DNA from: Paraburkholderia sp. Tr-20389
Lineage (GTDB): Bacteria > Pseudomonadota > Gammaproteobacteria > Burkholderiales > Burkholderiaceae
Length of the DNA stretch: 64,000 nt
Direction of reading: 5' to 3'
Assembly (NCBI RefSeq): GCF_017104565.1
Contig: NZ_JAAGPD010000007.1
Span: forward strand, 124,001-188,000
Below the pieces are notes generated by a model, which searched no databases, was not told where the DNA came from, and was given only the letters and a program-made list of their open reading frames with translations. Shown piece by piece: positions 60,023 to 63,545 of this stretch. The position numbers were made by a program, and so were the translations under genes. The first letter of the stretch is position 1; every line of letters starts with the position of its first letter.

Positions 60023-60041
60023 GGTCGGGTTGAAAAGAAGA

Positions 60042-60064
60042 GGGCGCTGCGGCGCCCTTTTTTT
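60042..60064 (+). terminator. Rho-independent terminator after guaA
   Basis: GGGCGC / GCGCCC stem (60042-60047, 60052-60057) with a short loop and a run of seven T. It ends guaA transcription before the convergent acetyltransferase gene. Confidence 0.85.
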
Positions 60065-60075
60065 ATCGCCGGCGC

Positions 60076-60588
60076 CTACGGCCTCTTCAGCACATACGTC
60101 GCCGCCATCGTCCCATAGTAAGGCTGCAAACCGAGACACCGCATCCCCAGCCGCTTCACTACCTTGATCGATCGTTCATTCGACGGATGCGTCGTCGCGT
60201 GGATCGACGCAAGACCAAGAACATCGAAAGCAAACGCGATCATCGCGTGCGCCGCTTCCGTCGCATAGCCGTGGCCCCAGTGATCCCGTTTCAGCCGCCA
60301 GCCGACTTCGACGGGATTGCGCGGTTCGTTCTCGATGTGCTGAACGCAGCCCGCGCCGATGATTTCGCCGTTGTCTTTCCTGATGATCGACCACCACGAA
60401 AAGCCGAACTGGTCCCAGCGTTGTCTCGCGCTATCGATAGTCGCCTGTACTTCCATCGCAGTCGCAATCGAACCGTCACCGAGGTACTGCATGACAACAG
60501 GATCGGAATTGAGCGCGAGAAGTCCGGCGAAATGGGTTTCGTCGAATGGTTCGAGGCGCAGCCGCGCAGTTTCGAGCGGGGTTCGCAT
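60076..60588 (-). CDS. GNAT family N-acetyltransferase (RimJ/RimL-like)
   Basis: A 170-residue GNAT protein starting MRTPLETARLRLEPFDETHF. The acetyl-CoA site is in RDHWGHGYATEAAHAMIAFAF (Q/R-x-x-G-x-G/A type), followed by THPSNERSIKVVKRLGM, both typical of the RimJ/RimL subgroup that acetylates protein N-termini or small amines. Substrate unknown. ATG 60588 is preferred by family alignment over ATG 60615. It lies 51 bp after the UdgX gene on the same strand, so it may be cotranscribed with it. Confidence 0.85.
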   Translation of the reverse strand: MRTPLETARLRLEPFDETHFAGLLALNSDPVVMQYLGDGSIATAMEVQATIDSARQRWDQFGFSWWSIIRKDNGEIIGAGCVQHIENEPRNPVEVGWRLKRDHWGHGYATEAAHAMIAFAFDVLGLASIHATTHPSNERSIKVVKRLGMRCLGLQPYYGTMAATYVLKRP

Positions 60589-60639
60589 GGCGTGTCGTCC
60601 GTGGCTGCCGTCCATGCTCGCGCATTCGCCGACGCAACG

Positions 60640-62112
60640 CTAGTCCGGCGCACGCTGTTGTTCCTTCACCGCATCCGCTAGTTCACGCGCCCGAACCAGC
60701 GCGTCCGCAATCGATGCCAGCACCCGCTGACGGTCCTCGTCATGTTGCTGCCGCAACGCATACGACGGGTGATACGTCGCGATCACCTGCATACCGTTCA
60801 CATCGAGCGTTTCGCCGATGCAATCGCTCAAGCCGACCTTCTCGTGCAGCAACGCTCCCAACGCGGTCGCGCCCAGCGTGACGACGACGGCAGGCCTCAC
60901 GCGTTCGAGTTCTCGTTCCAGCCAATAACCGCACGCGTCGATTTCCTGCTGCGCCGCCGTCTTGTGCAGACGCCGCTTGCCGCGCAGCATCCATTTGAAG
61001 TGCTTGACGGCGTTTGTCAGATATAGACTGTCACGCGCCAGACCCGCGCGCTCGATCGCCACATCGAGCAGCCGGCCTGCCGGGCCGACGAACGGCTTGC
61101 CCGCGAGGTCTTCGAGATCGCCGGGCTGCTCGCCGATCAGCATGATGCCCGCATCGCCGGGACCGATGCCGTCGACGGCCTGCGTCGCGTGCCGCCACAA
61201 TTCGCAGCGCCGGCAAGCGTCGAGCGTCGACGGGTGTTGTCGCGCGGGCTGCGCGCTGTGCGCATCGACGGGCACGCTTTTACCGCCGAGCATGCCGACG
61301 CCGCTCGCCTGCGCGATCCGTCGCGCGCCGCTTTTCGCTTCGCTGATCATCGATGGAATCAGGCTGCCTTCGGGCAAGGCTTTCCAGAAGCGCACGGGCA
61401 TGTGCTGTTCGAGCGCGCTCTCGTTCAGGCGCGCGGGATTGAACGTGCTGCGATAGTAGGCGAGCCAAAGCGCTTCGGCTTCGTCGGCGGTGTGGGCAGC
61501 ATGATCGCCGGATCGTGCGGGGCCACGTTCGAGCCGCAGCGCGCTGCCGTTCCACCATGCCGCGCCGTCGGGTGTCGAGATGAGCCAGGTCGAACGGCCC
61601 ATGCGTCGCGCGAAGTGCTCGGCCGACCACGCGAGCACATCGTGTTCCGGTTCGTACCACGCGACGTATTCGGGCAGATCGGGAGTGGGCGTATCGTCAG
61701 CGGCGTCGCGCAGCCGGAACCGCACGTACGCGATCATGTCGTGTTTCGCGCGCCGCACGGCCTTGGCCATCTTGTAGAGCCGGGCGCCGTCGGTATCGGC
61801 AGGCGACGCGACCGAGCGGTCGCCGCCATGCCATCGCCAGAGTACGCGATAGAGAAACGCCCAGCGGGCCGGCTCGCGATACAGCGCGGCGTCGTTCAGC
61901 AGTTCAGCAAGCTCGCGGGATAGGCGGACTTCAGCGGGCACAGTCGGTGCAAACGGTGTAACAGCTTCATCGTCGAACAGCGTGTGAGCGGCAGCATGAG
62001 CGTCGTCGCGAATGCGCCAGTCGATTTTCTCAGGTACGACGCGCTGCGCCAGCGCCTGTAGCGCCGCTTCCCGCCACGCGGCGAACGTGTCGTCGATCGC
62101 GATCACATGCAT
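60640..62112 (-). CDS. udgX: UdgX-type uracil-DNA glycosylase-superfamily protein with N-terminal DUF4130 domain
   Basis: A 490-residue two-domain protein. The N-terminal half (about 1-250) matches the DUF4130 domain linked to radical SAM proteins. The C-terminal half (about 295-485) is a uracil-DNA glycosylase fold with a family-4-like N-terminal Cys set (CRRCELW), motif GEQPGDLEDLAGKPFVGPAG, and the UdgX-specific loop KRRLHK at 379-384. In Mycobacterium smegmatis UdgX the His of this loop bonds covalently to uracil-site DNA; here it is H383. It begins 16 bp after the radical SAM gene, so the two form an operon. Confidence 0.93.
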   Translation of the reverse strand: MHVIAIDDTFAAWREAALQALAQRVVPEKIDWRIRDDAHAAAHTLFDDEAVTPFAPTVPAEVRLSRELAELLNDAALYREPARWAFLYRVLWRWHGGDRSVASPADTDGARLYKMAKAVRRAKHDMIAYVRFRLRDAADDTPTPDLPEYVAWYEPEHDVLAWSAEHFARRMGRSTWLISTPDGAAWWNGSALRLERGPARSGDHAAHTADEAEALWLAYYRSTFNPARLNESALEQHMPVRFWKALPEGSLIPSMISEAKSGARRIAQASGVGMLGGKSVPVDAHSAQPARQHPSTLDACRRCELWRHATQAVDGIGPGDAGIMLIGEQPGDLEDLAGKPFVGPAGRLLDVAIERAGLARDSLYLTNAVKHFKWMLRGKRRLHKTAAQQEIDACGYWLERELERVRPAVVVTLGATALGALLHEKVGLSDCIGETLDVNGMQVIATYHPSYALRQQHDEDRQRVLASIADALVRARELADAVKEQQRAPD

Positions 62113-62128: not shown

Positions 62129-63340
62129 TCAAAGCAGCGACAACTGCGTGGGCGGTGGCGTCAACGCGTGCCGCAACCGTTCGGTCGATAGATCAGACTG
62201 CGCCGGACGATAGTCGACTGTCACGACGAAGGGCTTCGTCTTCTCCATCGAGCAGCGCAGCTGCACGAGATCTTGATAGCGAATGAGTCGCGAGCGCCGC
62301 AATTCCACCAGCCGCTTCGCGTTGCGCATGCCGATGCCCGGCACGCGCGCGATCATGCGCGCGTGGGCGCGATTCAGATCGACGGGAAAACTGTCGCGAT
62401 GATTGAGCGCCCACGCGAGTTTCGGATCGATATCGAGCGCGAGATTGCCGGGCTTGTCGAACAGTTCGTCGACGCGAAAGCCATAGCCGCGCAGCAGAAA
62501 ATCCGCCTGATACAAACGGTGCTCGCGCAGCAGCGGCGGCGCTTTCGCAGGTAGGGAAGTCGGGCTGTCGGGAATCGGGCTGAACGCGGAGTAATAGACG
62601 CGCTTGAGTCGGTACGAGCCGTACAGCGTCTCCGCCGTTTGCAGGATCGTGCTGTCGCTGGTTTCGTCCGCGCCGACGATCATCTGCGTGCTTTGTCCCG
62701 CTGGCGAGAAGCGGGGCGCTTTCGCGTCGTTCCCGGCTTCTTCGCGCGCGAGACGGATCGAGCCCATCGCGAGGCGGATCGTGCGCGCGCTTTTTTCGGG
62801 TGCGAGCCGTTCCAGACTGATTTCCGTCGGCAGTTCGATATTGACGCTTAAACGGTCCGCGTAACGGCCTGCTTGCGCGATCAGCGCATGATCGGCGTCC
62901 GGAATCGTCTTCAGATGAATGTAGCCGCGAAACTGATGATCTTCTCGCAGCGACTGCGCGACGCGCACCAGTTGCTCCATCGTGTAGTTCGAGGACTGGA
63001 TCACGCCGGAGCTGAGAAACAGCCCGTCGATATAGTTGCGCCGGTAGAAGTCGAGCGTGAGGCTGACGACCTCCTCGGGCGTGAAACGCGCGCGCGGCAC
63101 GTTGCTCGTGCGCCGGTTCACGCAGTACTGGCAGTCGTACAAACAGAAGTTGGTCAACAGGATCTTGAGCAACGAAACACAGCGGCCGTCGGGCGTAAAG
63201 CTGTGGCAGATGCCTGAACCCGTGCTCGCGCCGAGCCCGTCCGTGTCGCGCGAACTGCGCTGCGGCGCACCGCCGCTCGCGCACGATGCGTCGTATTTGG
63301 CCGCGTCGGCGAGTATTTCGAGCTTTTTGAGCAGTTCCAT
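62129..63340 (-). CDS. Putative DNA modification/repair radical SAM protein
   Basis: A 403-residue radical SAM enzyme. The [4Fe-4S] ligands are C66, C70 and C73 in NFCLYDCQYCVNR. A helix-hairpin-helix DNA-binding motif (ARVPGIGMRNAKRLVELRR) lies near residues 335-355, and an early Cys/Ser/Gly-rich segment (KYDASCASGG) and SGICHSFTPDGRC precede the cluster. The family occurs beside UdgX/DUF4130 genes and is annotated as putative DNA repair; its reaction is unknown. The start MELLKKLEILADAAKYD is the family start. A LexA box lies 14 bases upstream. Confidence 0.92.
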   Translation of the reverse strand: MELLKKLEILADAAKYDASCASGGAPQRSSRDTDGLGASTGSGICHSFTPDGRCVSLLKILLTNFCLYDCQYCVNRRTSNVPRARFTPEEVVSLTLDFYRRNYIDGLFLSSGVIQSSNYTMEQLVRVAQSLREDHQFRGYIHLKTIPDADHALIAQAGRYADRLSVNIELPTEISLERLAPEKSARTIRLAMGSIRLAREEAGNDAKAPRFSPAGQSTQMIVGADETSDSTILQTAETLYGSYRLKRVYYSAFSPIPDSPTSLPAKAPPLLREHRLYQADFLLRGYGFRVDELFDKPGNLALDIDPKLAWALNHRDSFPVDLNRAHARMIARVPGIGMRNAKRLVELRRSRLIRYQDLVQLRCSMEKTKPFVVTVDYRPAQSDLSTERLRHALTPPPTQLSLL

Positions 63341-63354
63341 GATGAATGGAGATG

Positions 63355-63370
63355 CTGTATATATGTACAG
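63355..63370 (-). promoter_or_regulatory. LexA (SOS) box upstream of the radical SAM-udgX operon
   Basis: CTGTATATATGTACAG, CTGT-N8-ACAG, matching the E. coli SOS consensus at 18 of 20 positions when flanks are included (TGCTGTATATATGTACAGTA). It lies just downstream of the predicted -10 and 14 bases before the start codon, an ideal place for repression. Confidence 0.9.
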
Positions 63371-63371
63371 T

Positions 63372-63399
63372 ATTCTACGCGGTCACAGAATGCCCACAA
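63372..63399 (-). promoter_or_regulatory. Predicted sigma-70 promoter for the radical SAM-udgX operon
   Basis: On the minus strand, TTGTGG (63394-63399), 16-base spacer, TAGAAT (63372-63377). The LexA box follows at once and would cover the transcription start. Confidence 0.6.
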
Positions 63400-63474
63400 G
63401 GCGCAACGCGGGGGCTGTCCTGGCTTTGTTTCAGTTTTTAGCCAATAGCGCGTACAGCGCTGCGCGAAAAGCAA

Positions 63475-63501
63475 AACGCGGCGCACAAGATGCGCCGCGT
63501 T
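63475..63501 (-). terminator. Terminator after the APC permease
   Basis: Perfect 11-bp stem AACGCGGCGCA / TGCGCCGCGTT with a CAAGA loop. In the minus direction it is followed by TTTTGCTTTT, so it ends the permease transcript and isolates the SOS operon. Confidence 0.75.
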
Positions 63502-63545
63502 CGTTGAACACGGTCCGTAACAACGAACCGTGCTTCATTCAAAGA

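Follow-up and report, generated by a model that had tools for sequence, protein, structure and literature searches.

The 64-kb window, that is, the whole stretch of DNA analysed, comes from Paraburkholderia sp. Tr-20389 and carries a small gene unit on its minus strand. The first gene (62129..63340) encodes a radical SAM protein of 403 aa that belongs to TIGR03916 (rSAM_link_UDG) and displays a CX3CX2C motif (C66/C70/C73) and a helix-hairpin-helix (HhH)-like stretch near the C-terminus. After a gap of 16 nt there follows a gene (60640..62112) for a fusion protein of 490 aa, in which profiles recognize DUF4130 (TIGR03915) at residues 6-248 and UdgX (TIGR03914) at residues 251-470. An earlier note on this DNA spoke of a radical SAM-UdgX operon. 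Both gene names hold, but the label omits DUF4130, which turns out to be the constant partner. A third gene, 24 nt beyond the fusion gene (60076..60615, minus strand), matches the profile of a GNAT acetyltransferase (Acetyltransf_3) and is probably cotranscribed with the other two; a terminator-like hairpin found in the hairpin scan (60041..60058, minus strand) would end the three-gene unit. Is the acetyltransferase a constant third member? This was rejected: among 16 genus genomes it is present in 9 of 11 close relatives and in none of five more distant ones, and it is absent in six other genus loci and in L107, L108, L162 and L163, most of these having shorter downstream DNA.

On the upstream side, an intrinsic terminator lies behind a transporter gene (63474..63502, minus strand), with a 13-pair stem, a T-rich tail, a folding energy of -23.5 kcal/mol and a z of -2.9, so that the terminator claimed to isolate the unit is credible; the scan found six such sites in 3.7 kb, versus 3.3 +/- 1.8 in shuffled sequences. 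Between this terminator and the radical SAM gene lies the promoter region. The -35 hexamer TTGTGG (63394..63399) is followed by a 16-nt spacer, the -10 hexamer TAGAAT (63377-63372 on the minus strand) and, 1 nt further downstream, a palindromic LexA (SOS) box at 63355..63370, which reads CTGTACATATATACAG on the coding strand and is recognized by sequence, by matrix and by conservation in orthologues. Read directly, the start codon ATG stands at 63340-63338, leaving 14 nt between box and ATG. Every distance that had been given for this arrangement is correct. A promoter scan with a fixed threshold of 9 of 12 called none at this position, the two hexamers matching at 8/12 by our own count. The arrangement is itself conserved: of 38 genus and family loci inspected, 36 have a strict box, and in 33 of these a TA-N3-T hexamer stands 1 nt ahead of it. 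Transcription would start at about 63365, under the box.

The box, CTGTATATATGTACAG at 63355-63370, is the sole exact CTGT-N8-ACAG in the 64-kb window, and CTGTACATATATACAG differs by one mismatch from CTGTATATATATACAG, which we take to be the E. coli LexA consensus; the likeness to that consensus noticed earlier is therefore real. Does the palindrome exceed chance? The bare pattern CTGT-N8-ACAG does not: with one mismatch allowed, 11 sites were found in the window versus 12.1 expected, and genome-wide there are 61 versus 79 for a reversed control. The bare pattern was accordingly rejected as evidence. Sites within three mismatches of CTGTATATATATACAG number 19 genome-wide, and the reversed control gives none, so it is the AT-rich core that counts. 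With a matrix built from seven other boxes of the host genome, the window box scores 26.2 bits and ranks first, the runner-up having 9.6; a score of 26.2 bits is not reached in any of 60 simulations of a 64-kb sequence.

Eight of the 19 genomic sites near CTGTATATATATACAG are at SOS-type genes or at the radical SAM operon. The host genome has lexA and recA, both with the same kind of box as the operon: lexA is preceded by two boxes and recA by a single one, located 142 nt upstream of the recA match. Two imuA genes have a box each, with an SRAP gene on the far side of one imuA site, and a further box precedes a uvrA-family gene that is cut by the locus end and falls below the model cut-off. The remaining two of the eight are the operon's own box and a near-consensus SOS box that lies 20 nt ahead of a FAN1-like nuclease gene (FAN1_HTH, SAP, VRR_NUC; L008:1540-3015).

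The operon is patchy in the genus: a search with the radical SAM protein finds no match in 105 of 145 genomes. The gene is full length in 36 (one of these in two pieces, with a single open frame) and represented by fragments only in four. The earlier note had proposed looking for the same box before orthologous operons, and it is conserved there. Both box arms were seen in 29 of the first 30 loci checked, and a strict CTGT-N8-ACAG precedes the orthologues in 34/36 genus, 2/2 family, 6/7 order and 12/23 class loci, with shuffle means of 0.10 or less, the class and phylum searches having sampled 321 and 398 genomes from larger groups. The strict box is thus absent in 11 of the 23 class loci; with one mismatch allowed the count is 18/23, the shuffle mean being 1.5. 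The two genus loci that are not strict are L158, with one mismatch, and L044. In the other classes of the phylum the box changes. None of 54 loci there carries a strict CTGT box in the upstream 150 nt, and all 54 carry a strict GAAC-N7-GAAC (shuffle mean 0.33), which we take to be the alphaproteobacterial LexA box and which occurs in none of the 36 genus loci. The 54 loci are presumably alphaproteobacterial. A Caulobacter vibrioides control genome matches both TIGR03916 and TIGR03915.

A second set of relatives, the best 80 of 589 confirmed stretches, gives a similar picture, with class judged from record titles. Among these 80, a strict CTGT box is present in eight of nine betaproteobacterial loci and a strict GAAC box in 48 of 50 alphaproteobacterial ones, and the 17 gammaproteobacterial loci divide into seven with a strict CTGT box, seven with one mismatch and three with another palindrome; three Verrucomicrobiota loci and one Myxococcota locus show no strict box of the CTGT, GAAC or GTCTCA kinds. 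The genome-search set (122 loci) and the best-80 set share two loci, leaving 200 distinct of 202, so that box counts hold per set and are not additive. On a tree of the radical SAM protein (199 rows; minimum change counts, without a shuffled control) the box type switches at least four times. The swap from CTGT to GAAC in step with the clade argues strongly for LexA control, which the earlier note had put forward and which, on this evidence of conserved and exchanged operators, is very likely.

Could the palindrome be bound by another regulator, its likeness to a LexA box being accidental? LexA binding at this site is, after all, predicted from sequence, and the Xanthomonadaceae have a different palindrome at the same operon. 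But in two groups the kind of box goes with the class of the host, and boxes like that of the operon precede lexA and recA in the window's own genome; an accidental likeness is thus very improbable.

Even with one mismatch allowed, both kinds of box are missing from seven of the 122 genome-search loci (L044, L057, L060, L077, L109, L115 and L116). Three of these, L057, L115 and L116, have a GTCTCA palindrome, L044 has an apparent insertion, and L060, L077 and L109 are without explanation. A side observation concerns the insert in L044, which is probably an insertion element. The same sequence is found at L044:85-102 and at L177:2952-2969 (Massilia polaris), behind what by eye appears to be a transposase end, and in L044 it replaces the left half of the box. 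This may reflect two separate insertions of related elements in the box region, one in each of two genera.

The Xanthomonadaceae palindrome is an observation in its own right. GTCTCA-N5-TGAGAC stands 22 nt before the operon start, in strict form in five of six genomes and with one mismatch in G751; loci with the palindrome upstream of the radical SAM gene are L187, L203, L220, L057, L115 and L116, and other loci with it are L244-L254, L256, L267, L269 and L292-L321. The strict form is rare, with one to three copies per genome and 15 sites in the six genomes, against none for the reversed control. Eleven of these 15 were examined: four precede the radical SAM operon, three uvrA, three a helicase gene and one nothing recognized, and in a profile scan one uvrA product and one helicase, both truncated at the end of the locus, came out as UvrA and TIGR03817-like. 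With one mismatch allowed, three genomes contain 25 sites (control 0), and 20 further loci of this kind comprise one SRAP gene, one PA0069-type radical SAM gene, one helicase gene, one radical SAM operon, two mraZ genes (by eye) and fourteen others. The strict palindrome is present in 41 of 60 family genomes, the reversed control in none of the 60; of 30 family loci listed, 11 precede the helicase gene, five the radical SAM gene and one recA, and 13 match no test protein. A related A/GTCTCA-N5-TGAGAC lies upstream of an apparent mraZ (by eye) in L265, L266, L296 and L309. From the genes that follow them, these sites look like a small DNA-repair regulon. No description of such an operator was found in titles and the beginnings of abstracts, a coverage that leaves papers on Xanthomonas LexA outside.

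The radical SAM protein scores 548.3 bits with TIGR03916 (cut-off 343.5), its only NCBIfam match; Pfam adds PF04055 and a sub-threshold HHH_3. The cysteines C66, C70 and C73 of the CX3CX2C motif are invariant in 45 sequences, as are C20, C45 and C54 outside it, which makes a second metal site or cluster possible. The C-terminal part is weakly like HhH proteins, and among solved structures there are weak matches alone, mostly to HydE/HydG-type and HhH proteins. The protein does not match the SplB/SPL-type radical SAM model in NCBIfam or Pfam. Its closest relatives among the matches listed are from Caballeronia and Cupriavidus.

Which partner accompanies the radical SAM gene most faithfully? When up to 2.7 kb downstream was searched with profiles, DUF4130 was found adjoining it in 191 of 193 distinct loci, these being the loci with at least 1.5 kb of downstream DNA and including relatives from the best 80 of 589. 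The 193 consist of 153 DUF4130-UDG fusions, 36 with DUF4130 alone, two with both domains apart and two with neither, and thus the UDG domain is missing in 38, although loci with just 1.5 kb downstream may hide a separate UDG gene further on. Six DUF4130-only proteins that were scanned score over the TIGR03915 cut-off. On the tree of 199 rows described above, the UDG state switches at least 15 times, again as a minimum count. Since 38 of 193 loci have no adjoining UDG, the domain is not essential to the core function, and since DUF4130 is near-constant and UDG variable, the SOS core consists of the radical SAM protein and DUF4130, with UdgX as a module that comes and goes. DUF4130 has no solved relative beyond the UDG part of the fusion.

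The UdgX domain of the fusion scores 232.4 bits with TIGR03914 (cut-off 189.95), and the same domain also passes TIGR00758 UDG_fam4 (129.7 versus 125.3 bits). Motif A, GEQPG, and an R-loop, KRRLH, are present, the published R-loop being KRRIH; motif B is HPSYALR, compared with the published HPS(S/A)(L/V)(L/V)R, and HPSYLLR is the form most common in relatives (70/156). By our own matching, E52, Q53, H109, H178 and R184 of UdgX would correspond to E328, Q329, H383, H448 and R454 here, all five invariant in an alignment of 41 sequences that were preselected by length and by the presence of a G[EQ].PG motif, and not by the histidine. Of 158 UDG-bearing loci, a loose motif script picked out 153 with both GEQPG and the R-loop histidine; among its five misses, L089, L095 and L237 show the R-loop histidine, in L123 the loop is longer but includes a histidine, and L120 has none. 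Mycobacterium smegmatis UdgX (PDB 6AIL, 6AJO, 6IO9), which matches residues 285-474, is like the window protein in GEQPG and in the cross-linking R-loop histidine; unlike the window fusion, its solved chains (205-229 aa) are without a DUF4130 part. In UdgX, H109 bonds the abasic sugar, helped by E52, and histidine substitutions turn the protein into one with ordinary UDG activity, according to the accessible part of the source (PMC10359453). Because substitution of that histidine has this effect, the conservation of H383 speaks for cross-linking. By these residues, the window protein should excise uracil and bond covalently to the abasic site through His383.

A reading as a phage or defence gene set was also considered. 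None of the three proteins has a PADLOC match, and the defence-system reading was set aside; in PHROG there is no match for the radical SAM protein and there are weak ones for the UDG domain. In viral collections one IMG/VR locus and 10 phage records match. L323, a record of 240 kb labelled Acinetobacter phage, has glyS, glyQ and aidB as neighbours of the radical SAM gene and so looks like a bacterial contig, and with the one phage record examined looking bacterial, a phage origin was rejected. Matches are found in 158 of 72,556 plasmid records, and the annotation of one of them already names both proteins. E. coli genomes have no DNA match.

We consider it highly probable that the unit is a LexA-repressed SOS operon, in which a putative repair core of radical SAM protein and DUF4130 is joined by a UdgX module. 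Box, promoter geometry, conservation, gene families and active-site residues, all of them read from sequence, support this model. LexA, which we infer to bind the box, would cover the transcription start at about 63365 and block the promoter. RecA filaments formed on damaged DNA would lead to self-cleavage of LexA, and the operon would be induced and expressed. Its product would be a set of proteins for the repair of DNA lesions, the constant core being the radical SAM enzyme, with its HhH-like stretch, and the DUF4130 protein. The fused UdgX domain would excise uracil and become cross-linked to the abasic site through His383; it may park the complex at uracils or abasic sites, or shield these, during the SOS response. 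The pair of radical SAM enzyme and DUF4130 protein would carry out radical chemistry on what is presumably a different substrate, another damaged base.

Two other functions for the pair of genes have to be weighed against this. The radical SAM enzyme might act on the covalent UdgX-DNA adduct, resolving or processing it, and the operon would then encode a suicide lock together with its key. This reading draws on the encoding of UDG and radical SAM together in most loci (154 fused and two separate of 200 distinct) and on the HhH-like stretch, which suggests DNA binding by the radical SAM protein. But 36 of the 193 distinct loci have radical SAM and DUF4130 with no adjoining UDG domain. Nor is the lock found elsewhere in such genomes: in 20 of the 23 DUF4130-only genomes from the genome search, no TIGR03914 match anywhere exceeds the cut-off of 189.95 bits, although weaker matches exist in 11 of them, reaching 154.2 bits in G808. 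The radical SAM tree also shows 15 or more switches of the UDG state, and resolution of the adduct is an unlikely function. Alternatively, the operon may serve plain base excision repair, with a family-4 glycosylase that turns over and is induced against the uracil of the SOS period. A UDG base excision repair system is what the related operon is called in PMC8565304, and the domain does pass the family-4 model; against this stand its higher UdgX score, the GEQPG motif and KRRLH loop, and a loop histidine that is invariant in the 41 sequences and whose substitution gives UdgX ordinary UDG activity (PMC10359453). Simple turnover is accordingly improbable, and the model of a radical SAM-DUF4130 core with an accessory UdgX cross-linker is preferred.

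The earlier note had supposed the SOS link of these genes to be little described. This is not so: a link has been published for Bacteroidetes and predicted for Clostridium. In the accessible text of PMC8565304, the SOS network of Bacteroidetes includes a two-gene COG1573-COG4277 operon, taken as a putative UDG system for base excision repair, and work on Verrucomicrobia and on Alphaproteobacteria (Caulobacter) is cited there for the same SOS-regulated operon. By our own assignment, from COG labels there and NCBIfam models here, these are the same two gene families under an SOS box; that operon differs in having another SOS motif and a UDG taken as a base excision repair enzyme, and the text seen does not mention Burkholderiaceae. 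LexA control has also been predicted for the Clostridium acetobutylicum pair CAC3343-CAC3344, the part of the source available listing the partner of the radical SAM gene as a protein of unknown function (PMC3828012). SplB-type photolyase genes of alpha- and betaproteobacteria are likewise radical SAM repair genes with a LexA box (PMC3323433, as far as accessible), but they represent another family, the window protein matching TIGR03916 alone in NCBIfam. The accessible text of that same 2012 analysis of the betaproteobacterial LexA regulon does not name the operon and contains neither 'uracil' nor 'radical SAM'; it lists 'hypothetical' genes hypA and hypB. A gene with the same annotation is up in desiccated Acinetobacter, as the available part of PMC13130816 reports.

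As the two genes already figure among the SOS genes of other bacteria, the novelty is moderate. What was not found in print is the occurrence of members in Burkholderiaceae and Pseudomonas, the optional nature of UdgX and a union of the UdgX and SOS literatures; among the papers searched, none joins UdgX with LexA, or UdgX with radical SAM. More tentatively, the SOS response of many Proteobacteria may induce a deliberate cross-linker of uracil or abasic sites, along with a radical SAM-DUF4130 pair that works with or without it, a tie that would have been rebuilt with at least three operators, including the GTCTCA-N5-TGAGAC of a small Xanthomonadaceae repair regulon; this wider proposal is a possibility to which we give less than even weight.

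The present case adds a Burkholderia-like host to those in which these genes come under an SOS box and identifies the uracil-binding part as an optional one. The physiological role of UdgX is described as largely unknown in the accessible text of PMC10359453, and joining the UdgX and SOS literatures offers a testable role for this covalent uracil binder. DUF4130, as the constant partner, points biochemistry to the radical SAM-DUF4130 pair.
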